From contig JAUSBY010000009.1 of assembly GCA_030651765.1 (NCBI GenBank), positions 1 through 47,963 on the forward strand: DNA of 47,963 nt, in the 5' to 3' direction. The notes below the pieces were generated by a model. The model saw only the letters and a list, made by a program, of their open reading frames with translations, was not told the origin of the DNA and searched no databases. Origin of the DNA: Coriobacteriia bacterium. GTDB lineage: Bacteria > Actinomycetota > Coriobacteriia > Anaerosomatales > Anaerosomataceae. Of the stretch, positions 2,703-39,516 are shown piece by piece. The translations under genes were made by a program, and so were the position numbers. How positions within the stretch are numbered: position 1 is the first letter of the stretch; each line of letters starts with the position of its first letter.

Positions 2703-3386
2703 ATGCAGCGCGCACTGGTGGTCGACGACGAGGCGAACATCCGCGAACTCGTGGCGGTGTACCTGCAGACCGCCGGGTTCTCCGTCGAGCACGCGACGGA
2801 CGGCGCCGAGGCGCTCACGAAGGCCCGGCACGGATCCTACGATGTGGTGATACTCGACATCATGCTCCCCGGGATCGACGGCGTGGAGGTCTGCCGGCGC
2901 ATCAGGGAACACTCGTCAGTCCCCATCATCATGCTCACCGCGCGTGAGGGCGACTTGGAGAAGGTCGCTGCCCTCGAGATCGGTGCAGACGACTACGTGA
3001 CCAAGCCGTTCAGCGCTCCAGAGCTCGTTGCGCGCGTCCGTGCGCTGCTGCGCAGGGCCGGGGCCGGCCGCCCCGCCGGACCGCTGACGATCGGCGGGCT
3101 GAGTCTGGATCCCGGAACCCGCGAGGTGATCGTGGACGGTCGCCATGCCTCGCTCACCGCCAAGGAGTTCGACTTGCTGCACGCCCTCCTGCGCAACCCC
3201 GGCATCGTCATGACCCGGGAGACGCTCCTCGACGCCGCATGGGGCTTCACCGAGTATGTGGACGCCCGCGGCGTCGACGTCCACATCAGGCACATACGCG
3301 AGAAGCTCGGGGACGACGCGGCCGACCCTCGCTTCATCGAGACCGTGCGCGGCGTGGGCTATCGCGCGATACGCGAGGGCTCATGA
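2703..3386 (+). CDS. OmpR/PhoB-family response regulator
   Basis: This is a 227-residue DNA-binding response regulator. The receiver domain occupies about residues 1-115, with acidic pocket D8-D9, phospho-acceptor D52 in VVILDIMLP, and K101 in TKPF. A winged-helix domain fills about 128-223 (TAKEFDLLHALLRNPG, then VDVHIRHIREKLGDD and the wing RGVGYR), so phosphorylation by the adjacent kinase probably controls promoter binding. The start ATG follows AAGGGGGT. The stop overlaps the kinase start as ATGA, which indicates translational coupling. The two secreted products encoded just after the kinase are its most obvious regulatory partners, but this is only context. Confidence 0.95.
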   Translation: MQRALVVDDEANIRELVAVYLQTAGFSVEHATDGAEALTKARHGSYDVVILDIMLPGIDGVEVCRRIREHSSVPIIMLTAREGDLEKVAALEIGADDYVTKPFSAPELVARVRALLRRAGAGRPAGPLTIGGLSLDPGTREVIVDGRHASLTAKEFDLLHALLRNPGIVMTRETLLDAAWGFTEYVDARGVDVHIRHIREKLGDDAADPRFIETVRGVGYRAIREGS

Positions 3387-4873
3387 CGATGGGTTCCGGG
3401 GTCGGGCGGGCGCGCATGACGGTCATGCGTCGCACGCGGCTTGCGGTCGCGGGCGTCGCCATAGCGTCTGTCCTGCTGCTCGCCGGCGTGGTCTACACCG
3501 CCTGGTTGCAGCACACCGAGGTCGTTCGCACCACAGAACTCGCGCGCCAGGTCTCGGCGATCGCCGCGGGCTTTGCGGCAGGTGACCCGCTCGACCTCTC
3601 CGGCGCTTCTCCGCTGGAGGGGCTACGCGCCGAGCTATTCGAGGTTGAGGCACGCCTGATAGGTACCCACCTCGTGCTGACCGACGCCGAAGGAGTGGTG
3701 CGTCACTCCTCGACGTTCGACGGGACGCTTGAGCGTTACGACATCGAGCGGCTGACCGGTCCCGCGGATGTGCGCGGCGTGCGCACAGGAACGGCGCCTG
3801 TGGCCGGTGCCGGCCGGGTGATCATCGTGGCCGCGCCCGTCCCGGGTGTCGCCTCCGACGGCTATCTCGTCGCGGTCCAGCCGATACGGGAGCTGGCCGC
3901 AGCCCGGCGCGGTGGAGGACTCATCCTCGTCGCCGTCACGCTCGTCGTCGTTGCGGGGGCCTGGCTGGCCGGCGGCATCATCGCCCATCGGATCACAGCG
4001 CCGCTCGTCCGGTTGCGGGAGGGCGCCGAAGCGATCGCGGGAGGCTCGTGGGGTCTCCAGGTGGCCGCGGAGGGCGACGAGGAGGTGGCGGCTCTCGCGA
4101 CCGCGTTCAACACCATGTCCTCGCGTGTGGATGCGGCGTACACAGCGCAGCGTGAGTTCGTCGGCGATGTGTCCCACGAGCTGCGGACGCCGATAACGTC
4201 CATCCAGGGGTTCGCGGGAGCGCTGCTCGACGATCTTGCGTCTGACGATGAACAGCGCGAGCGCTTCGCGCGGATCATCCGCGAGGAGTCGGGGCGGTTG
4301 ATGGAACTCACGGGCACCCTGCTCGCGCTTGCGGATCTCGATTCGGGACGAGTCCGGCTCGCTTCCGTGCCGGTGGACACAGTCGCGCTTGCCGAGGCGC
4401 TTGCCTCCCGTCACGAGATGGTCGCGCACCGCCGACAGGTGACGCTCGACATCGGTGACCTCGCCGCGAGCGGTCGCCCCGTGGCGGACGACCTCCGGTT
4501 GCTGCAGGTCGCATCCGCGCTTGTGGCCAATGCGATCACACATGCGCCGCCGGATAGCACGGTGCGGGTGGGCAGCTGCGTGCGTGATGGACGGTGGTGT
4601 CTTGAAGTCGACGACGCCGGCCCGGGGGTCCCGGAACACGAGCGCGACCGGGTGTTCGAACGGTTCGTCCGGCTCGACGTCAGCAGGTCGGCCGAAAGCG
4701 GGGGTTCCGGGCTTGGCCTGGCGATCTGTCGGCGCCTTGTCGAGCTGATGGGCGGGACGATAGCGGCGGAGACCTCTGGTCTCGGCGGGGCCCGTTTCGT
4801 CGTGTGTCTCGACCTTGCGCAGGGAGCTGACCCGCCCGGAGGGGTCAACCGCATCTCAACGGGTGCTCCATAA
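3383..4873 (+). CDS. sensor histidine kinase with HAMP domain
   Basis: The 496-residue membrane kinase pairs with the regulator before it. A first membrane helix lies at about 22-42. An extracytoplasmic sensor of about 130 residues follows, then a second helix at 179-201 and a HAMP linker ending near 255. HisKA has the phospho-acceptor His265 in FVGDVSHELRTP. The ATPase domain has N-box Asn383 (VANAITHAPP), G1 DAGPG (411-415), F-box FERF and G2 GGSGLGLA. All catalytic boxes look intact. The ATG at 3383 overlaps the regulator stop; the in-frame ATGs at 3389, 3416 and 3425 are alternatives. The sensor domain resembles nothing I can name, so the stimulus is unknown. Confidence 0.95.
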   Translation: MTMGSGVGRARMTVMRRTRLAVAGVAIASVLLLAGVVYTAWLQHTEVVRTTELARQVSAIAAGFAAGDPLDLSGASPLEGLRAELFEVEARLIGTHLVLTDAEGVVRHSSTFDGTLERYDIERLTGPADVRGVRTGTAPVAGAGRVIIVAAPVPGVASDGYLVAVQPIRELAAARRGGGLILVAVTLVVVAGAWLAGGIIAHRITAPLVRLREGAEAIAGGSWGLQVAAEGDEEVAALATAFNTMSSRVDAAYTAQREFVGDVSHELRTPITSIQGFAGALLDDLASDDEQRERFARIIREESGRLMELTGTLLALADLDSGRVRLASVPVDTVALAEALASRHEMVAHRRQVTLDIGDLAASGRPVADDLRLLQVASALVANAITHAPPDSTVRVGSCVRDGRWCLEVDDAGPGVPEHERDRVFERFVRLDVSRSAESGGSGLGLAICRRLVELMGGTIAAETSGLGGARFVVCLDLAQGADPPGGVNRISTGAP

Positions 4874-31378: not shown

Positions 31379-32218
31379 ATGTTCCGCATCGTACATACCC
31401 GTCAGCTCTCGGACGCCGTGTTCGAGATGGGCGTCGAGGCTCCCGCCATCGCCGCCAAGGCGCGCGCGGGCCAGTTCCTCATTCTGCGCGTGGCCGAGGG
31501 CGGCGAGCGCATCCCGCTCACCTTCTCCGACTGGAGCGCCGAGGAGGGGTGGATCCGCTTCATCTTCATGCGCGTGGGCAAGACCACGCACCAGCTCTCG
31601 CATCTACAGGTCGGCGACGCGCTCACCGATGTGGTGGGACCGCTCGGCGTGCCGACCCACACCGAGGGGCTCGGCCGGGTGGCTGTCGTCGGCGGTGGCG
31701 TCGGGGCCGCCGTCGCCTATCCTGTGTCACGCGCGATGTGCGACGCCGGCGCCGAGGTCACGGTCATCCTGGGGGCGCGCAACGCCGATCTGCTCATCCT
31801 GGAAGACGAGTTCCGGGCGCTTCCCCTGAAGGAGCTCATCATCGCCACCGACGATGGGTCGGCGGGCCGCAAGGACCTCGTGACGGCGCCGCTCAAGGAA
31901 CTGTGCGAGTCCGGCGCAATCGATGCGAGCATGGCCATCGGACCGGCCATCATGATGAAGTTCTGCGCGGCCACGACCAAACCATACGGTGTGCCGTGCG
32001 TCGTCTCGCTCAACCCGATCATGGTGGACGGCACGGGCATGTGTGGCGCCTGCCGTGTGACGGTGGGCGGCCAGACCAGATTCGGCTGCGTGGACGGGCC
32101 TGACTTCGACGGCCACCTCGTGGACTTCGAAGAGCTGATGAGCCGCCAGCGTGTCTACACCGACGACGAGCGGCTTGCCGACGCCGAGTACCACAGGGAG
32201 TGCTCATGCGGGCCGTAG
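31379..32218 (+). CDS. NfnA-like ferredoxin-NADP+ reductase subunit (FAD, [2Fe-2S])
   Basis: The 279-residue protein is of the dihydroorotate dehydrogenase electron-transfer/sulphide dehydrogenase type. It has an FAD domain (RAGQFLILRV...IPLTFSDW), an NAD(P) domain (VAVVGGGVGAAVAYPVSRAM) and a C-terminal [2Fe-2S] motif (GMCGACRVTVGG...FGCVDGPDFDGHLVDF). Paired with the following gene it matches NfnAB, which in anaerobes couples NADH, NADPH and ferredoxin by electron bifurcation; a simpler NADPH:acceptor role is the alternative. ATG at 31379 is preceded by GGAGG. It overlaps the next gene by 13 bases. Confidence 0.88.
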   Translation: MFRIVHTRQLSDAVFEMGVEAPAIAAKARAGQFLILRVAEGGERIPLTFSDWSAEEGWIRFIFMRVGKTTHQLSHLQVGDALTDVVGPLGVPTHTEGLGRVAVVGGGVGAAVAYPVSRAMCDAGAEVTVILGARNADLLILEDEFRALPLKELIIATDDGSAGRKDLVTAPLKELCESGAIDASMAIGPAIMMKFCAATTKPYGVPCVVSLNPIMVDGTGMCGACRVTVGGQTRFGCVDGPDFDGHLVDFEELMSRQRVYTDDERLADAEYHRECSCGP

Positions 32219-33660
32219 ACGATACCGGCAGCCCCGTGCCGCCTGAGAAGCCCCGCCACAAGCCGGCGCGCATCTCGCGCACGGCGATGCCCGAGCGTGG
32301 CCCTGAGGAGCGTGCGCGCGACTTCGACGAGGTCACCCTCGGCTACACCGAGGAGATGGCGCGTGCCGAGGCGAGCCGCTGCCTGCAGTGCCGCAACGCC
32401 ACCTGCATCGACGGCTGTCCGGTGAACATCGACATCAAGTCGTTCATCGGCGGCATCATCGACGGCGACTACCACGAGGCGGTTGCGATCCTCAAGGAGC
32501 GCAACGCGCTGCCGGCCATCTGCGGGCGTGTGTGTCCACAGGAGGAGCAGTGCGAGGCGGCGTGCGTGCTCGCCAGGAAGGGCGAGCCGGTCGCCATCGG
32601 CAGGCTCGAGCGGTGGCTTGGCGACTTCGATCTTGCCTGCGAGCTCGAGCACCGCTGTGTGCCCGAGGTCGGGCCGGACAGCGGCAAGCGCGTCGCGGTC
32701 ATCGGCTCGGGTCCCGCGGGTCTGGCGTGTGCAGGCGAGCTGCGTCGCTTCGGCCATGCGGTGACCGTCTTCGAGAGCCTTCACGCCACGGGCGGCGTGC
32801 TCACCTACGGCATCCCCGAGTTCCGACTGCCCAAGCACATCGTGCAGGCCGAGGTGGGACTCCTCGAGGAGATGGGCGTGGAGATCCGCTGCGACGTCGT
32901 GGTCGGCGCCACGTATACGATCGACGAGCTCATGACAGCCGAGGGCTACGACGCGGTGTTCATCGGCAACGGAGCCGGTCTGCCCATGTTCATGGGCATC
33001 CCGGGCGAGAACCTGAACGGCGTCTACTCGGCCAACGAGTTCCTCACGCGCGTGAACCTCATGCGCGCCTACGAGTTCCCGAAGGCGGATACCCCCGTGT
33101 GGCGCGGACGCAAGGTCGCGGTCGTCGGCGGCGGCAACGTCGCGATGGACGCCGCTCGTACTGCCAAGCGGCTCGGCGCCGAAGAGGTCTTCTTAGTCTA
33201 CCGCCGGACCGAGGACGAGATGCCGGCGCGCAAAGAAGAGGTGCACCATGCGCGTGAGGAGGGCATCGAGTTCAAGATGCTGTGCTCGCCGGCGGAGATC
33301 CTCGGTAACGACGGATTCGTGACAGGACTCGTGGCCAATCGCATGGAACTTGGCGAGCCCGATGCGAGCGGTCGCCGGTCGCCGGTGTGCGTGCTTGGTC
33401 AGGACTTCACGATCGACTGCGACACGCTCATCATGGCGATCGGCACCCGGGCCAACCCTCTCCTTGCACAGACGACTCCCGATCTCGAACTCTCGAGCCG
33501 GGGCTACGTCCTGGCCGACGAGCACGGCGCGACCTCGAAGCGCGGCGTATTCGCAGGTGGCGACATCGTCACCGGCTCGGCGACCGTGATCCTGGCCATG
33601 GGGGCCGGCAAGGTCGCTGCCCGCGCTATCGACAGATGGCTCAAGCCTGGCGCTGAATAG
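32206..33660 (+). CDS. gltA: NfnB / GltA-type NADPH oxidoreductase
   Basis: The 484-residue product resembles the small subunit of glutamate synthase and NfnB. N-terminal cysteine motifs for two [4Fe-4S] clusters (CLQCRNATCIDGCPVNI, then CGRVCPQEEQCEAACV) are followed by an FAD Rossmann site (VAVIGSGPAGLACAGEL) and an NADPH site (VAVVGGGNVAMDAARTAKRLG). The C-terminal FAD contact is GVFAGGDIVTG. The ATG at 32206 follows AGGGAG. Because it overlaps an NfnA-like partner and no glutamate synthase large subunit is present, Nfn transhydrogenase is the better role; homotetrameric archaeal-type glutamate synthase is the other annotation often given. Confidence 0.88.
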   Translation: MRAVDDTGSPVPPEKPRHKPARISRTAMPERGPEERARDFDEVTLGYTEEMARAEASRCLQCRNATCIDGCPVNIDIKSFIGGIIDGDYHEAVAILKERNALPAICGRVCPQEEQCEAACVLARKGEPVAIGRLERWLGDFDLACELEHRCVPEVGPDSGKRVAVIGSGPAGLACAGELRRFGHAVTVFESLHATGGVLTYGIPEFRLPKHIVQAEVGLLEEMGVEIRCDVVVGATYTIDELMTAEGYDAVFIGNGAGLPMFMGIPGENLNGVYSANEFLTRVNLMRAYEFPKADTPVWRGRKVAVVGGGNVAMDAARTAKRLGAEEVFLVYRRTEDEMPARKEEVHHAREEGIEFKMLCSPAEILGNDGFVTGLVANRMELGEPDASGRRSPVCVLGQDFTIDCDTLIMAIGTRANPLLAQTTPDLELSSRGYVLADEHGATSKRGVFAGGDIVTGSATVILAMGAGKVAARAIDRWLKPGAE

Positions 33661-33768
33661 TCCGATGTCTGTGCTGTGCGGTACAATCCGACTGTAACCG
33701 CGTGACAATCGGCATATGTCGGCGATGAGTGGCACGACCAGCGGTTTCCTGGCGGTCGGGAGGTGGCG

Positions 33769-34509
33769 GTGTCAGACTCCATCAGAGTACTCGTTGTCGA
33801 TGACGACGTGTCGATCGTGGATATGCTGCGCATGGGCCTCGAGGCGGAGGGAATGCGCGTGCATACAGCCGGGGACGGGGCCGAGGCACTCGAGGTGCTC
33901 CACGCGACCGCGATCGACCTGGTGGTTCTGGACATCATGATGCCGCGCGTAGACGGCTGGATGGCGCTCATGGAGATCCGCAACGATCCCGCCACCGCCG
34001 ACATCCCGGTGATCATGCTCACCGCCAAGACGCAGGATCTTGCCCGCATCCTCGCGTTCAAGCAGGGCGTGCAGCAGTACGTCACCAAGCCGTTCAACCT
34101 GATGGAGCTTGTGGCCCGTATCCAGAGTCTGATGCGCGGTCGGACACGTGCCGGTGCGTCCGTGGGCGTCGAGGGCGATTTTCGCAAGCTCGCCGTCCGC
34201 AAGGGCGGCCGCACCGTGCTGCTCGACCTCGACGATGTCATCTACGTTTCGGCGAAGAACAAGTCGACGTACGTGCATACGTACGAGAACCAGTACCTCG
34301 TCGATCTCACGCTGTCCGAGCTCGAAGAGCGGCTGTCGAAGGACGCGTTCCGCAGGCTTCACCGCAGCTACATGATCAACCTGAACAAGGTCAAGGAGAT
34401 CCTGCGCGTCGACGGTGCGTACGTCGTGGCTATGGCCGATCGCGACGAGACGCAGGTGCCGGTCGCCAGGCGACAAGTAAGGGCTTTCCGAGAGGCGGTA
34501 GGTATCTGA
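33769..34509 (+). CDS. LytTR-family response regulator
   Basis: The 246-residue protein has a receiver domain (about 5-125; D11-D12 pocket, acceptor D55 in LVVLDIMMP, K107 in TKPF). A LytTR DNA-binding domain (about 143-244) follows, with VIYVSAKNKSTYVHT and LHRSYMINLNKVKEI. LytTR regulators usually control surface polysaccharide, autolysis, bacteriocin or virulence genes, often as AgrA/LytR-type partners of a sensor kinase. No kinase is adjacent. The start at GTG 33769 is favoured by GGGAGG five bases upstream. Its stop overlaps the next start (TGATG), so it is coupled to the DUF916-like surface gene, which suggests it controls this surface cluster. Confidence 0.92.
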   Translation: MSDSIRVLVVDDDVSIVDMLRMGLEAEGMRVHTAGDGAEALEVLHATAIDLVVLDIMMPRVDGWMALMEIRNDPATADIPVIMLTAKTQDLARILAFKQGVQQYVTKPFNLMELVARIQSLMRGRTRAGASVGVEGDFRKLAVRKGGRTVLLDLDDVIYVSAKNKSTYVHTYENQYLVDLTLSELEERLSKDAFRRLHRSYMINLNKVKEILRVDGAYVVAMADRDETQVPVARRQVRAFREAVGI

Positions 34510-35516
34510 TGACGCTGCGTCCAACCACCCGGCGGTTCACGGCCGTGCTTCTGCTCACGGCCGTTGTCGTACTGGGGACCGTGCATACAGCGATGGCCGA
34601 ACGCACGATCGCGCTCAGCACCGGGACGGTCGATCTGGCGCTCGCTCCCGGTGGCATAGCGACGGAAACGATAGCGGTGGCCAACAACGGCGACGAGCCG
34701 CTCGCCGCTCTGGTCTACACGAATGACGTCGTGTACGACGATGAGGGTCTACCCGAGTACGTGAAGCCCACCGGCGCCGCAGGCGAGTTCAATCGCAGTC
34801 CGGCTTCGTGGCTGTCGCTTCGCATGCCTGCCGAGACTCAAGTGATCGCGAACACCCCGTATATCGAACTCGCTCCCGGCGAGGAGATGCTCATCGACTT
34901 CGAGATGCGCGTTCCCGACGGCGCGACGCCGGGCGACTACAACGCCATCATCTTCTTCGAGATGTTCAACCCGGAGCCGCAGTCAGGCACCTCGTCGCAG
35001 ATCTCCGGGCGGATCGGTGCGCGCATCGTCCTGCGGGTCGCCGGCGACGTCATCGACCGTCTCGATGTCGCGCCCTACGCGGTCCGGGGCTTCGTGATCG
35101 GCGACGTGGTTCCGTACTCGTTCACGCTCGCCAACGACGGCAACATCGACAAGCGGTACGTGCCCTCGCTTGTGGTGCTCGATGGCACGGAGGCCGAGCG
35201 GATGCGCTCGCAGATCGAGACCATGCCTATCGTCTATGCCGGCAACACGCGGGGGTATGATGGTGGCCTGAAGCTGACGAACGCGAACTTCGGCCGCTAC
35301 ACGATGCGGGTCGAGATCGCGTACGACAAGGAGACCGGAAGCGCGCCTGGCGCCACGATCCCGGAGACGATCGTGAAGGATCGGAGCTTCATCGTCATCC
35401 CGCTGTGGTTTGCGATCGTGGTCGTGCTCGTCGTGGCGCTGCCGATCCTGTGGCTGGTGTGGCGCACAAGCGTGCGCGGAGCCGCAAAGAAAGCTGCTGC
35501 CGTATCGGCCGAGTGA
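34509..35516 (+). CDS. membrane-anchored Ig-like surface protein (DUF916/WxL-interacting-like)
   Basis: The 335-residue protein has a signal peptide ending in AMA (about residue 30). A beta domain at about 32-155 (LAPGGIATETIAVANNGDEPLAALVYTNDVVYDDEG in pieces, then ELAPGEEMLIDFEMRVP) is followed by a second Ig-like domain (about 160-285). One C-terminal membrane helix (about 298-320) and a short basic cytoplasmic tail close it. That layout and the N-terminal domain resemble the DUF916 WxL-interacting proteins of Firmicutes, which bind peptidoglycan and WxL-domain proteins. The match is by eye. It is coupled to the LytTR regulator and faces four small secreted proteins with W-x-(L/F) motifs. 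Confidence 0.72.
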   Translation: MTLRPTTRRFTAVLLLTAVVVLGTVHTAMAERTIALSTGTVDLALAPGGIATETIAVANNGDEPLAALVYTNDVVYDDEGLPEYVKPTGAAGEFNRSPASWLSLRMPAETQVIANTPYIELAPGEEMLIDFEMRVPDGATPGDYNAIIFFEMFNPEPQSGTSSQISGRIGARIVLRVAGDVIDRLDVAPYAVRGFVIGDVVPYSFTLANDGNIDKRYVPSLVVLDGTEAERMRSQIETMPIVYAGNTRGYDGGLKLTNANFGRYTMRVEIAYDKETGSAPGATIPETIVKDRSFIVIPLWFAIVVVLVVALPILWLVWRTSVRGAAKKAAAVSAE

Positions 35517-35526
35517 GCGCGCGAAT

Positions 35527-35859
35527 CTAGCGGGCGGGGACCAGGCTGTACTCCTGCAGGGCTGCCACCGGCACCGCCGCGCCGTCGCCTCCGGTGGGTC
35601 CGCCGCTGATCACCCGGGTCTGAACCCCGGCGCCATCGGCTGCCGTGGAGATCGTCGTCAGGACCCATGGGGTGTTTGCGTAGACGGTCATCCCGTTGTC
35701 ATCCACCTGCGCGCTGATGCTTGGAAGCACGCGGAACGACACCTGGACCTTCGCGTCTGAGGCCAGAGCGGTGATGGGGAGTGCGACGGATGCTGCCAAC
35801 CCTGCCGCCACGACAAGAGCTGAGACCCTCTGTCGGCTGGTATACCGTCCGTCTCTCAT
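35527..35859 (-). CDS. small secreted protein with a WxL-like motif (family member 1)
   Basis: The 110-residue product has a signal peptide (about 1-34, VALPITALAS), then a beta-rich mature part beginning KVQVSFRVLPSISAQV. YANTPWVLTTIS includes a W65-V-L tripeptide. It has the same start (K/S-V-x-V-x-x-R-V/I-x-P) as the two larger proteins encoded further along this strand but is shorter and ends EYSLVPAR, not V-Q-Q. No enzyme motif is seen. Convergent with the DUF916-like gene (10-base gap). It is probably a surface protein; function unknown. A Gly-rich loop (GGPTGGDG) lies in the middle. Confidence 0.7.
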   Translation of the reverse strand: MRDGRYTSRQRVSALVVAAGLAASVALPITALASDAKVQVSFRVLPSISAQVDDNGMTVYANTPWVLTTISTAADGAGVQTRVISGGPTGGDGAAVPVAALQEYSLVPAR

Positions 35860-36056
35860 CGGTGCCTCCCTTCATCGCCTTGACATACCGTTTATCGGGC
35901 GATGAACGGGCATGACTTGGTGACGAAGGGCACACCGTGAAAGACAAACCGACCAACGGTAGATGGACGGGAGTGAACGGCAGACTTGCGGTCATACTGA
36001 CTGGGTCTGAGGCGGCGATGGAAGGCAGCTGAAGGGGGCCTGACGTAGGCCGCGCG

Positions 36057-36545
36057 CTACTGCTGAACGGCTGTGTAGCCCATCGTCGTGGTGATCTGCG
36101 TGCCGGCAGGCAGCGAGAGCGCCTCAGGTGTGGTGAGGTCGAGCACGTAGTCGCACGCGATCTCGTGGATGCCGGCAGGCAGCCCGTCACCGAAGCCGGG
36201 TGTCACGGTGTGCCGAACGATCCGTTCACGGGGGATCGTGAGCTCGCCTACCGAGATGACCGAGTCCGACGAGTCGGTGAAGTCCCACGGGCGTCCGGAG
36301 CGGACGAGAAGTGTCTGGCTGTCGGGCGACTCGTAGACCTCCCCGACCGTGACGTCTCCGAAGGCGACGGCACCGCCCGTGAGGATCGTAAGCGAGAAGA
36401 CGGGAGCGATGCGGGCGGTGACCTGGACGCTCACGGACTCGGCGTCGGCGTAGCCGGGAAGCAGCAAGGCGACGAGGAGCGTGGCGCATGCGATCGCGGC
36501 GATCGCTCGCCTACCGGTGCCCATCGATGTGATGCCCGCATGCAC
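36057..36545 (-). CDS. small secreted beta-rich protein (family member 2)
   Basis: The 162-residue product has a signal peptide ending near AYADA-like GYADA (about 35). The mature domain runs SVSVQVTARIAPVFSLTI, then AVAFGDVTVGEV, then LLVRSGRPWDFTDSSD with W87, and ends TTTMGYTAVQQ. The pattern of alternating hydrophobic strands with FG-x-V-x-x-G and W-x-F-T is shared with member 3. I do not recognise a named family. It resembles surface beta-sandwich subunits such as WxL or spore-coat-U-like proteins. GTG at 36545 has GAGGAGAG seven bases before it; the ATG at 36524 is an alternative. Confidence 0.7.
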   Translation of the reverse strand: MHAGITSMGTGRRAIAAIACATLLVALLLPGYADAESVSVQVTARIAPVFSLTILTGGAVAFGDVTVGEVYESPDSQTLLVRSGRPWDFTDSSDSVISVGELTIPRERIVRHTVTPGFGDGLPAGIHEIACDYVLDLTTPEALSLPAGTQITTTMGYTAVQQ

Positions 36546-36598
36546 GCTGATGCTCTCCTCGTCCGATCGATGCCGCGTGAGAACTCCCGAATCGAGCG

Positions 36599-36628
36599 GC
36601 GGCCGGGGTGGAAACCCACCCCGGCCGC
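36599..36628. terminator. strong hairpin between family members 3 and 2
   Basis: A perfect 13-bp inverted repeat, GCGGCCGGGGTGG (36599-36611) and its complement (36616-36628), encloses AAAC. It lies about 40 bases after the stop of the 37095-36667 gene and before the next minus gene. The T run is weak; a terminator or attenuator within the cluster is likely. Confidence 0.6.
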
Positions 36629-36666
36629 ACGTTACGCACGTAGTAGAAAGTACGTACCGGGCTGCC

Positions 36667-37095
36667 CTACTGCTGGACGGCGGTGTACGTGTACGTTGCG
36701 ACGTAGTTCGTATCGGCCTCGAGGTCGTAGGCCGCGTCAGTGCTCAGGTCGATGGCGTACTCGGCGTCGATGGTCGTCACGCCGCGGGCAATGTCAGTGG
36801 TGTCAGCCATACTGGTCTCGGTGAGGACCGCGGCGAGCGGCGCGACGACGTCATCGCTCTTGGTGAAGTCCCAGAGCTTGTTCGACTTGACGGTGATGAC
36901 GGAGCTGCCGGTGTCGGTGTCGCCGACGTCCAGACCGGTGAAGTCGATCGCGGGCTCGCTGATTTCCATCGAGAAGGCCGGGTTCACCTTGGCGGTGACG
37001 ACGACGTCGCCAGTGTCATCGAGGGCAACTGCGAACGCCACGATGCCGAACATCAGCGCGACCACCATGACGGCTGCCAGTACGGTTCTCTTCAT
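36667..37095 (-). CDS. small secreted beta-rich protein (family member 3)
   Basis: The 142-residue product has a signal peptide (MKRTVLAAVMVVALMFGIVAFA cut before LDDTG). Its mature domain parallels member 2: DVVVTAKVNPAFSMEI, FTGLDVGD, VITVKSNKLWDFTKSDD with W75, AEYAIDLSTDAAYDLEA, and the end TYTYTAVQQ. The mature protein is acidic. Its ribosome site is AAGGAGGAA. It is flanked by hairpins and by its relatives, so the group probably arose by duplication. The function is unknown, but repeated secreted domains beside a DUF916-like anchor suggest a wall-associated complex. Confidence 0.75.
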   Translation of the reverse strand: MKRTVLAAVMVVALMFGIVAFAVALDDTGDVVVTAKVNPAFSMEISEPAIDFTGLDVGDTDTGSSVITVKSNKLWDFTKSDDVVAPLAAVLTETSMADTTDIARGVTTIDAEYAIDLSTDAAYDLEADTNYVATYTYTAVQQ

Positions 37096-37282
37096 GCGAT
37101 GTTCCTCCTTGTTGTCCGTCGCGGCCTGTGGCCACAGTCGGTTGGCGGCCCACGGGCCACACGATTAGCTTTCTACAGTACTTCTCGGCACGGCGGGCAG
37201 GAAATGAAGCACCCTTTGCCGTACGGCGGAAAAATGTGACGAGCGGTTGACCCACAGCGACCAGCGGCCCCGATTTCGGGTG

Positions 37283-38065
37283 TCAGTCCTGCACGACGGT
37301 GTACGTGACCGTCGCCGTGTAGGTCGCATCACCCGGGGTCGTCCACGGCGCAGTGGCCTGGTACTGGTCGACGAGCGCAGCGGTTCCGTCCGACTTCGGG
37401 CCTGACGCATCTCCGGTGACGTCGAGTCCGAACGAAGCGGCGTCGGGGGTGATGTCGCGGGTGATCATGTACGAATGTGACGACGTCACGCTCACCGTGA
37501 CGTCGTGGACCGGGGAGGCCACATCCGGCTGCAGATCGAAGTCGACCGATGTCGGACTCACGCTGAGTGTCAGCACGCGTGTGCCGATGGTGTAGTCGCC
37601 GGTCGGTAGATCCTGCGGGTCGCGCACGTTGTTGTTGGCGGGGTTCGCGAGGAAGATCGTCAGGCTGCCGGCGTTATACACACCGGAACTCGAGGGGTTG
37701 GTGATCCCGCCGATGCTCACGCTGTATTCGGCGCCCCTGCCCACGGGCGTGGCGAACGTGATGGTGACCGTCTGACCGCTGATTGAGACCGTGCCGGCGG
37801 GGCTGACCGCGGTTGCGCCGGAGACACTGGTGCCTGCCGGGAACGTGATCGCCGCACCAGTCGCCATCTCGCCGTTGCCGTTGGTGAACGTTCCGAAGGT
37901 GTACGTGACGCCGGTGGTGGACGTGTACGCGTCGCTCAACGTCGTCGTCGGTCCGGTATACGAGACGGCATGCGCGAGCAGGGCTGAGCCTGCGATGAGA
38001 GCCAGGACGAGACCTGCACTCGCGAGCGCCGTCCGTCGGCTATGTGTGCTGTGGGTGCTGTGCAT
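37283..38065 (-). CDS. larger secreted beta-rich protein (family member 4)
   Basis: The product of about 260 residues has a signal peptide ending LAHA. A Ser/Thr/Gly-rich beta domain follows (GAAITFPAGTSVSG, GRGAEYSVSIGGITNPSSSG), of a type common in actinobacterial and archaeal surface proteins. The C-terminal half resembles members 2 and 3 (LTLSVSPTSVDFDL, VTVSVTSSHSYMIT) and ends ATYTATVTYTVVQD. In place of the W-x-F-T it has SYMIT. The start is unsure: ATG 38065 and ATG 38110 both lack a ribosome site. Codons 2-7 are a HST repeat made by a 9-bp tandem repeat (38046-38063), which could vary in length. Confidence 0.68.
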   Translation of the reverse strand: MHSTHSTHSRRTALASAGLVLALIAGSALLAHAVSYTGPTTTLSDAYTSTTGVTYTFGTFTNGNGEMATGAAITFPAGTSVSGATAVSPAGTVSISGQTVTITFATPVGRGAEYSVSIGGITNPSSSGVYNAGSLTIFLANPANNNVRDPQDLPTGDYTIGTRVLTLSVSPTSVDFDLQPDVASPVHDVTVSVTSSHSYMITRDITPDAASFGLDVTGDASGPKSDGTAALVDQYQATAPWTTPGDATYTATVTYTVVQD

Positions 38066-38148: not shown

Positions 38149-39516
38149 CTAGTTCCGGAGACTCCCGAGCGGGGCGGGGACCCGTCCTCCCCTGCGGACG
38201 AGCGTTGCGCTGCTCCACTCGGACACACTCATCACAGGCGCGGCGCCGAGCAGCCCGCCCCAGCTCACGTGGTCGCCGGCGTGCTTGCCGAACGCCGGAA
38301 TCAGGCGCGCCGCGGTGGTCTTGTTGTTGATGACGCCGATCGCGCACGCGTCCGAGATGATGCCCGCAATCGTCTCGGCGGGGGTGTCGCCCGGAATCGC
38401 GATCATGTCGAGACCCACAGAGCACACGGCGGTCATCGCCTCGAGCTTCTCCAAGTTGAGCGCACCGCACTCCACGGCGCGCACCATGCCGGCGTCCTCC
38501 GAGACCGGGATGAATGCGCCCGAGAGCCCGCCGATCGATGACGTGCCCATGGCGCCGCCCTTCTTGACGGCGTCGTTCAGCAGCGCGAGCGCCGTGGTGG
38601 TGCCGGGCGCACCGCAGCGCTCAACGCCCATAGCTTCGAGGATCTCCGCCACGCTGTCGCCCTCGGCAGGTGTCGGGGCGAGCGAGAGGTCGACGATGCC
38701 CATGGCAACGCCGAGGCGCCGTGCGGCCTCGCGCGCGACGAGCTCCCCCGCGCGTGTGATCTTGAACGACGTCGCCTTGATGGCCTCGGCCACGGCGGTG
38801 AGGTCCGCTTCCGGCGGCATCGCGGCGATGACCGCACGCACCACTCCAGGTCCGGAGATCCCCACGTTGACCACGACATCGGCCTCTCCGGGGCCGTGCA
38901 TCGCGCCGGCCATGAACGGGTTGTCCTCGACCATGTTGGCGAAGACGACGAGTTTGGCGCAGCCGATGGAGTCGGCATCCGCGGTGAGCTCGGCGGTCTC
39001 CTTGATCGTGTGTGCCATGCGCGCCACCGCGTCCATGTTGATGCCCGCGCGTGTGGAGGCTACGTTGACCGACGAGCACACGCGCGAGGTGGAGGCGAGT
39101 GCGGCCGGGATGGAGCGGATGAGCGCGTCGTCGCCAGCGCCGACGCCTTTGTGCACGAGCGCCGAGAAGCCGCCGATGAAGTCGACCCCTGCAGCCTCGG
39201 CGGCGCGGTCCATCGCTTCGGCGACCGGTGTGAGGTCGTCGCATGCGCAGCGTCCGGCAACGACTGCCACCGGGCTCACCGCGATGCGCTTGTTGCGGAT
39301 CGGGATGCCGTACTCGCGCTCGATGGCCTCGCAAACAGGCACGAGCCGCTCGGCGGCGTGTGTGACCTTGTCGTACAGGCGGCGCGCCATCTCATCGGAT
39401 GAGTCGGCACCGCAGTCGCCGATGGAGATGCCGAGCGTGACGGTGCGGATGTCGAGATGCTGCTGGTGGACCATGAGCAGCGTCTCGACGATCTCCTCGG
39501 GACTGATGTTGAGCAT
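38149..39516 (-). CDS. UPF0210 (DUF711, PFL-like) family protein
   Basis: The 455-residue cytoplasmic protein matches the DUF711/UPF0210 family, structurally related to pyruvate formate-lyase-type barrels. Landmarks are [64 protein letters not shown] and [14 protein letters not shown]. Its reaction is unknown; no glycyl-radical motif is present. It is nearly always paired with the small ACT-domain gene that precedes it here by 52 bases, which suggests amino-acid-responsive control. ATG at 39516 has CGGAGG upstream. Confidence 0.93.

Follow-up and report, generated by a model that had tools for sequence, protein, structure and literature searches.

The window analysed here is a 47,963-nucleotide stretch of a Coriobacteriia genome (GenBank assembly GCA_030651765.1, contig JAUSBY010000009.1; order Anaerosomatales) from a free-living, probably subsurface actinobacterium. 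It carries a six-gene system, genes A to F, that spans 33763-38065. Gene A (33763..34509, plus strand, with a GTG start at either 33763 or 33769) encodes a response regulator with a receiver domain and a LytTR DNA-binding domain, and an open reading frame (ORF) check placed its stop codon and the start codon of gene B in an ATG/TGA overlap. The product of B (34509..35516, plus strand) features a signal peptide, two tandem immunoglobulin-like (Ig-like) beta domains, a C-terminal transmembrane helix (residues 299-334) and a basic tail, according to both its sequence and its predicted structure. Convergent to these genes, four minus-strand genes encode exported proteins: C (35527..35859), the smallest subunit at 110 aa, D (36057..36545), E (36667..37095) and F (37283..38065). 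An initial annotation made by reading the sequence had described this arrangement, with a LytTR regulator overlapping an anchor-like protein and four facing genes for exported beta-rich proteins, and each of these elements was found as claimed. In neighbourhoods of related genomes, A likewise lies directly 5' of B and the subunit genes are convergent. The recurrence of the same order and position across these relatives, together with conserved W-x-L and Y-T sequence signatures in the subunits, indicates that the cluster is not a chance assembly.

The B product either belongs to the WxLIP (DUF916-type) proteins as a divergent member or is very closely related to them. When its predicted structure (predicted local distance difference test score, pLDDT, 86.9) was compared with 350,542 Protein Data Bank (PDB) chains, the top match was the WxLIP of Enterococcus faecium (9i1y and 9i25, Foldseek 4.5e-11). 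VIA-align ranked the families in the same way, with Z-scores of 15.0 (229 residues) and 14.7 for EfmWxLIP and 13.3 for the next family, the fimbrial chaperone CfaA. The structural likeness to DUF916 whose absence would have counted against the initial annotation is therefore present. At the profile level, hhalign matched the B family to WxLIP proteins of Lactobacillales and Niallia at 97% (E 8.6e-11 over 316 columns; reversed control 5.8%), while the first domain alone scored 95%. The Pfam WxLIP_PGBD model matches 24 of 31 B orthologues (best 1.7e-7), and three of these (G003, G005 and G007) exceed its curated cut-off with 30.3-34 bits. The window's own B, taken alone, reaches E 0.0066 and 16.9 bits against a cut-off of 27.3, and a sequence search of the PDB returned EfmWxLIP1 as its sole matches, which were weak (E 0.26). 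The sequence NQIDKxxxYFDLK, which is conserved in Bacilli WxLIP clusters (PMC10599100), is absent from B, where the equivalent place reads STGTVDLALAPG; the E. faecium WxLIP of known structure reads IGYFDLLVAP at this position. Separately, a stretch of CP069367.1 (102334-102483), labelled as a Klebsiella pneumoniae plasmid, is identical to E. faecium WxLIP and likely reflects contamination or misassembly.

These matches also bear on whether the locus could instead encode an Ig-domain module for adhesion or wall binding that has no relation to WxL and resembles it by convergence, with the DUF916 likeness of B reflecting a generic NEW3/Ig signal. The NPCBM_assoc (NEW3) model matches slightly more B orthologues than WxLIP_PGBD does (27/31 versus 24/31), and the first domain of B scores 62% with NEW3-type repeats. 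However, the order of domains and helix is retained over the full length of the protein, WxLIP is the first structural match, the Pfam WxLIP cut-off is passed in orthologues, and the locus has the same make-up of small, large and anchor proteins. We regard convergence as improbable.

Genes C to F share one beta domain, which is the constant partner of B. An iterative profile built from E recovered this domain in D, in F and, in a short form, in C, in nearly all loci, and also at the C-terminus of 569-1033 aa proteins in 11 loci, where Ig-type and NEW3-like matches lie N-terminal to it. The domain is about 100-120 aa long. As the initial annotation had read them, C, D and E feature PWVLT, PWDFT and LWDFT motifs, respectively, while D and E both end in YTAVQQ and F in YTVVQD. 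Across the families, W-x-L is retained in 17 of 19 C-type proteins, including PWVLT in C itself, reads W-D-F in D and E, and is lost in F and in many E-type proteins, whereas the C-terminal Y-T signature is present in 56 of 58 D, E, F and large proteins. F occupies the place where other genera have the large protein, and combines its C-terminal WxL-like domain with an N-terminal half that barely exceeds the Pfam cut-off for DUF2808. This was the only assignment of the small proteins to any other family.

Comparison of the subunit domain with WxL domains is suggestive of homology at the level of profiles. Against a joint profile of Bacilli and Actinomycetota WxL domains, hhalign gave 66-70% (E about 5e-5), compared with 0.2% for the reversed control and 6% or less for other Ig-like families, and the ends of the aligned region fall on the two WxL motifs. 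With signal peptides left in, the small subunits had reached as much as 88%; once trimmed, they scored 23% by themselves and 66% when combined with the large domains, and these lower figures are the ones used here. The distal WxL motif, Y-x-x-x-(L/I/V)-T-W-x-L-x-x-x-P, was not found, and a Y-T-x-x-Q-type ending stands in its place. Given this second motif and the remoteness of the sequence likeness, we call C to F 'WxL-like' rather than 'WxL', which retains the resemblance proposed in the initial annotation but not membership of the Pfam family. Searches of PDB sequences with the subunit profile returned no useful match, and the same search with a Bacilli WxL query recovered no WxL chain. Nor was there a WxL chain among the listed structural matches of E, although one could lie outside that list.

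The structural comparisons raise a different possibility, in which B is a membrane-tethered chaperone of the PapD/CfaA kind, C, D and E are pilins joined by exchange of an N-terminal strand, and F or the large protein forms a tip or base. On this view, WxL systems would represent the Gram-positive branch of chaperone-pilin systems. The class 5 fimbrial chaperone CfaA ranks directly after WxLIP in the structure lists for B, with CsuC further down, and the predicted model of E resembles the pilins PapE, PapG, FimG and CsuA/B among many Ig folds. In addition, the small subunits begin, once mature, with a conserved alternating segment, V-x-V-T-A-x-V, to which the model assigns no strand, and cultivated Anaerosomatales carry pili-like appendages across the entire cell, which one strain shows only in the presence of ferrihydrite (PMC9686372). 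Set against this, likeness to the Ig/pilin fold class is common, the WxLIP match is stronger, the type IV pilin genes of the genome could make such appendages, and neither an usher-like nor a sortase partner was noticed among the genes of the cluster, although no family search aimed at one was made. Chaperone-usher systems (CfaA, CsuC, PapE) share with this locus a two-Ig chaperone fold and a pilin-like Ig fold, but B is membrane-anchored and no sequence homology to them was shown. We consider a chaperone-pilin system unlikely, and it is a little less likely still that, under an AlgR-like regulator, B donates a strand to C to E, which have a pilin fold, and passes them into strand-exchanged surface fibres that could be some of the Anaerosomatales appendages.

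To place the cluster in its wider context, 149 genomes of the class were sampled. B was found in 42 of these, all within Anaerosomatales, the order to which the window belongs, and all 42 also have A. No B and no subunit was present in any of the 14 A-bearing loci without B that were examined, and in the 12 of these where the PFL-type gene could be read (L133-L144), the ends of A and of this gene lie only 3-53 bp apart. The anchor and subunits are therefore present or absent as a unit, travelling or vanishing together while A stays. The survey of related genomes proposed in the initial annotation also showed that the annotated region sits within a larger site of fixed layout, which across the order reads glutamate-synthase-type gene, A, cassette, PFL/DUF711-type gene and ACT gene. 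In the window, these flanks outside the system are a glutamate-synthase-type oxidoreductase gene (32200..33660, plus strand), the conserved upstream neighbour of A, and a PFL/DUF711-type gene (38149..39516, minus strand), which abuts A in cassette-free genomes; both family names come from sequence inspection. The make-up of WxL clusters, one WxLIP with at least two partners, small and large, recurs here with WxL-like rather than Pfam WxL proteins, given that the window has C, D, E and F and that a protein of >500 aa is encoded in 11 loci.

Pfam analysis of A identified both a receiver (PF00072, 9.6e-28) and a LytTR domain (PF04397, 6.8e-26), the two domains that define LytTR response regulators. 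The best-scoring models for the receiver are of the PhoB/YycF type, whose cut-offs it misses by a wide margin; this sets A apart from AlgR/LytTR response regulators otherwise similar in domain content. A is also an orphan, as no gene for a LytS-type kinase adjoins it. The only such kinase (PF06580) of the genome lies elsewhere, adjacent to a second LytTR gene (G000:C4:233152-234472; L129, L130), and a dedicated two-component pair was therefore rejected. At locus L062, the LytTR regulator is present in two tandem copies (2274-2903 and 2900-3688), the first of which is shorter. In all, A is present in 60 of the 149 genomes, all in one order.

On reading the upstream regions, a repeated CCGYTYRTC sequence was spotted, which covers the AlgR core CCGTTCGTC (PMC4064291). 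Taking the 300 bp before the starts of A and the subunits as the upstream zone, 122 of 196 sites fall within this 5% of the sequence, 31-fold denser than elsewhere; 200 permuted motifs gave a mean enrichment of 1.2 and a maximum of 6.0. The loci are related, but the permuted control motifs share this relatedness. Sites precede 25 of 32 A starts and 41 of 58 subunit starts, and the spacing of same-strand sites peaks at 19-21 bp. In the window, two sites form a palindrome, CCGTTTATC-GGGC-GATGAACGG (35888..35909), 29-50 bp upstream of the C start codon, and a genome pattern search with CCGYTYRTCN{0,5}GAYRARCGG found this to be the sole occurrence in the 2.26-Mb genome (none for the reversed control pattern). 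A further site, CCGCTCGTC (37238..37246, minus strand), lies 143-151 bp before E, in a promoter element that is conserved. A direct-repeat pattern was discarded as evidence because its two matches in the genome equalled those of the reversed control.

Paired AlgR-type sites also occur away from the cassette in two relatives (L149, L150 and L151). They are found ahead of the gene for a large secreted protein and of an RNase Y-like gene, and in the interval that separates an exopolysaccharide-type sugar transferase from a secreted repeat protein; these names derive from sequence inspection. Their positions hint that A may govern surface functions more widely.

Taken together, it is likely that the cassette encodes a WxL-type cell-surface assembly. 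Several results weigh against this interpretation. The second domain of B has no sequence signal to DUF3324 (HBD; 0.3% by hhalign) and agrees in fold only, while Pfam WxL (PF13731) matches none of C to F and nothing else in the genome. Against Bacilli WxL alone, the subunits score just 1-3%, and the confident model of E adopts a common Ig/pilin arrangement (best Z 7.3). On the regulatory side, 18 of the 60 A-bearing genomes have no B match, so A occurs without the cassette, and exact sites in the window are confined to the regions upstream of C and E, with none before A, D or F. These last two results would fit a LytTR gene that is simply a neighbour of a cassette governed by something else. 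The strong enrichment of AlgR-type sites before subunit genes across the order and the genome-unique palindrome just upstream of C argue otherwise, and we hold this explanation to be quite unlikely. The direct LytTR control that the initial annotation had proposed is thus backed by conserved candidate sites, but the persistence of A without the cassette indicates that it is not a private regulator of the anchor and subunits and regulates more.

In the WxL-type assembly that we favour, B would be exported and remain fixed in the cytoplasmic membrane through its C-terminal helix. On the outer side it would bind the shared domain of C to F, probably through donation of a beta-strand of the kind predicted for the Bacilli WxLIP-WxL pair. 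The small subunits C, D and E and a display subunit, either F or the large proteins found elsewhere, would thereby be stabilised and held at the wall. Following phosphorylation by an unlinked kinase, A may bind the CCGYTYRTC repeats and regulate the subunit genes and also, in most relatives, its own expression, with either sign of control.

Known WxL proteins are mostly from Firmicutes, which contribute over 91% of sequences (PMC9772566), and their clusters comprise small and large WxL proteins and a WxLIP (PMC10599100, PMC9772566). In Bacilli, AlphaFold2 predicts that WxLIP completes the WxL domain by strand donation (PMC10599100), and csc clusters are reported to be gained or lost as a unit (PMC1534035). 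The Anaerosomatales cassette shares with the WxL/Csc clusters of Lactobacillales and Bacillales a DUF916-type anchor with a C-terminal helix, structurally nearest to EfmWxLIP, small and large partners with a common C-terminal beta domain, and gain or loss as a unit. It differs in its 100-120 aa domain, in which Y-T-x-x-Q replaces the distal WxL motif and the first W is often lost, in the additional, very short C-type protein, in subunit genes convergent to the anchor, in its LytTR/AlgR-type sites and in its occurrence in environmental actinobacteria rather than gut Bacilli. Separately, an Enterococcus gilvus plasmid encodes a LytTR-type regulator (L093, 1-744) close to a WxL cluster.

The suggestion that an actinobacterial analogue would be new holds in so far as published surveys place WxL essentially in Firmicutes, but DUF916 proteins with WxL-like partners also exist elsewhere in Actinomycetota. 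These DUF916 proteins are homologous to B, most of them with hidden Markov model E-values of 2e-21 to 1e-10. In nine loci (L116, L117, L119, L121, L122 and L124-L127), the gene lies beside one for a secreted protein whose C-terminal D-T-R...W domain matches Bacilli WxL at 97% by hhalign; two of these partners give a sub-threshold Pfam WxL match and the rest none. These loci therefore resemble the cassette in having a B-homologous anchor and an adjoining partner with a C-terminal beta domain, but their partners keep the WxL D-T-R...W motif, in several cases with a fusion to an HtaA, calcineurin-like phosphatase or GDPD domain, and for most of these loci no neighbouring LytTR gene was noted (L120 has one weak A-like match).

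WxL systems are viewed as platforms, bound to peptidoglycan, by which gut bacteria attach to their hosts, and the second WxLIP domain carries the name 'host binding'. The Pfam WxL model misses related partners across Actinomycetota, and the cassette takes WxL-type systems beyond the gut, with a regulator and a clean comparison between presence and absence. Its all-or-none distribution and AlgR-type sites allow the link between anchor, subunits and regulator to be tested in cultivated Anaerosomatales. Host attachment has been the explanation given for WxL systems, yet no host is known for this lineage. That a conserved WxL relative is present in an order whose cultivated members were obtained from subsurface waters speaks for a surface role that is more general.

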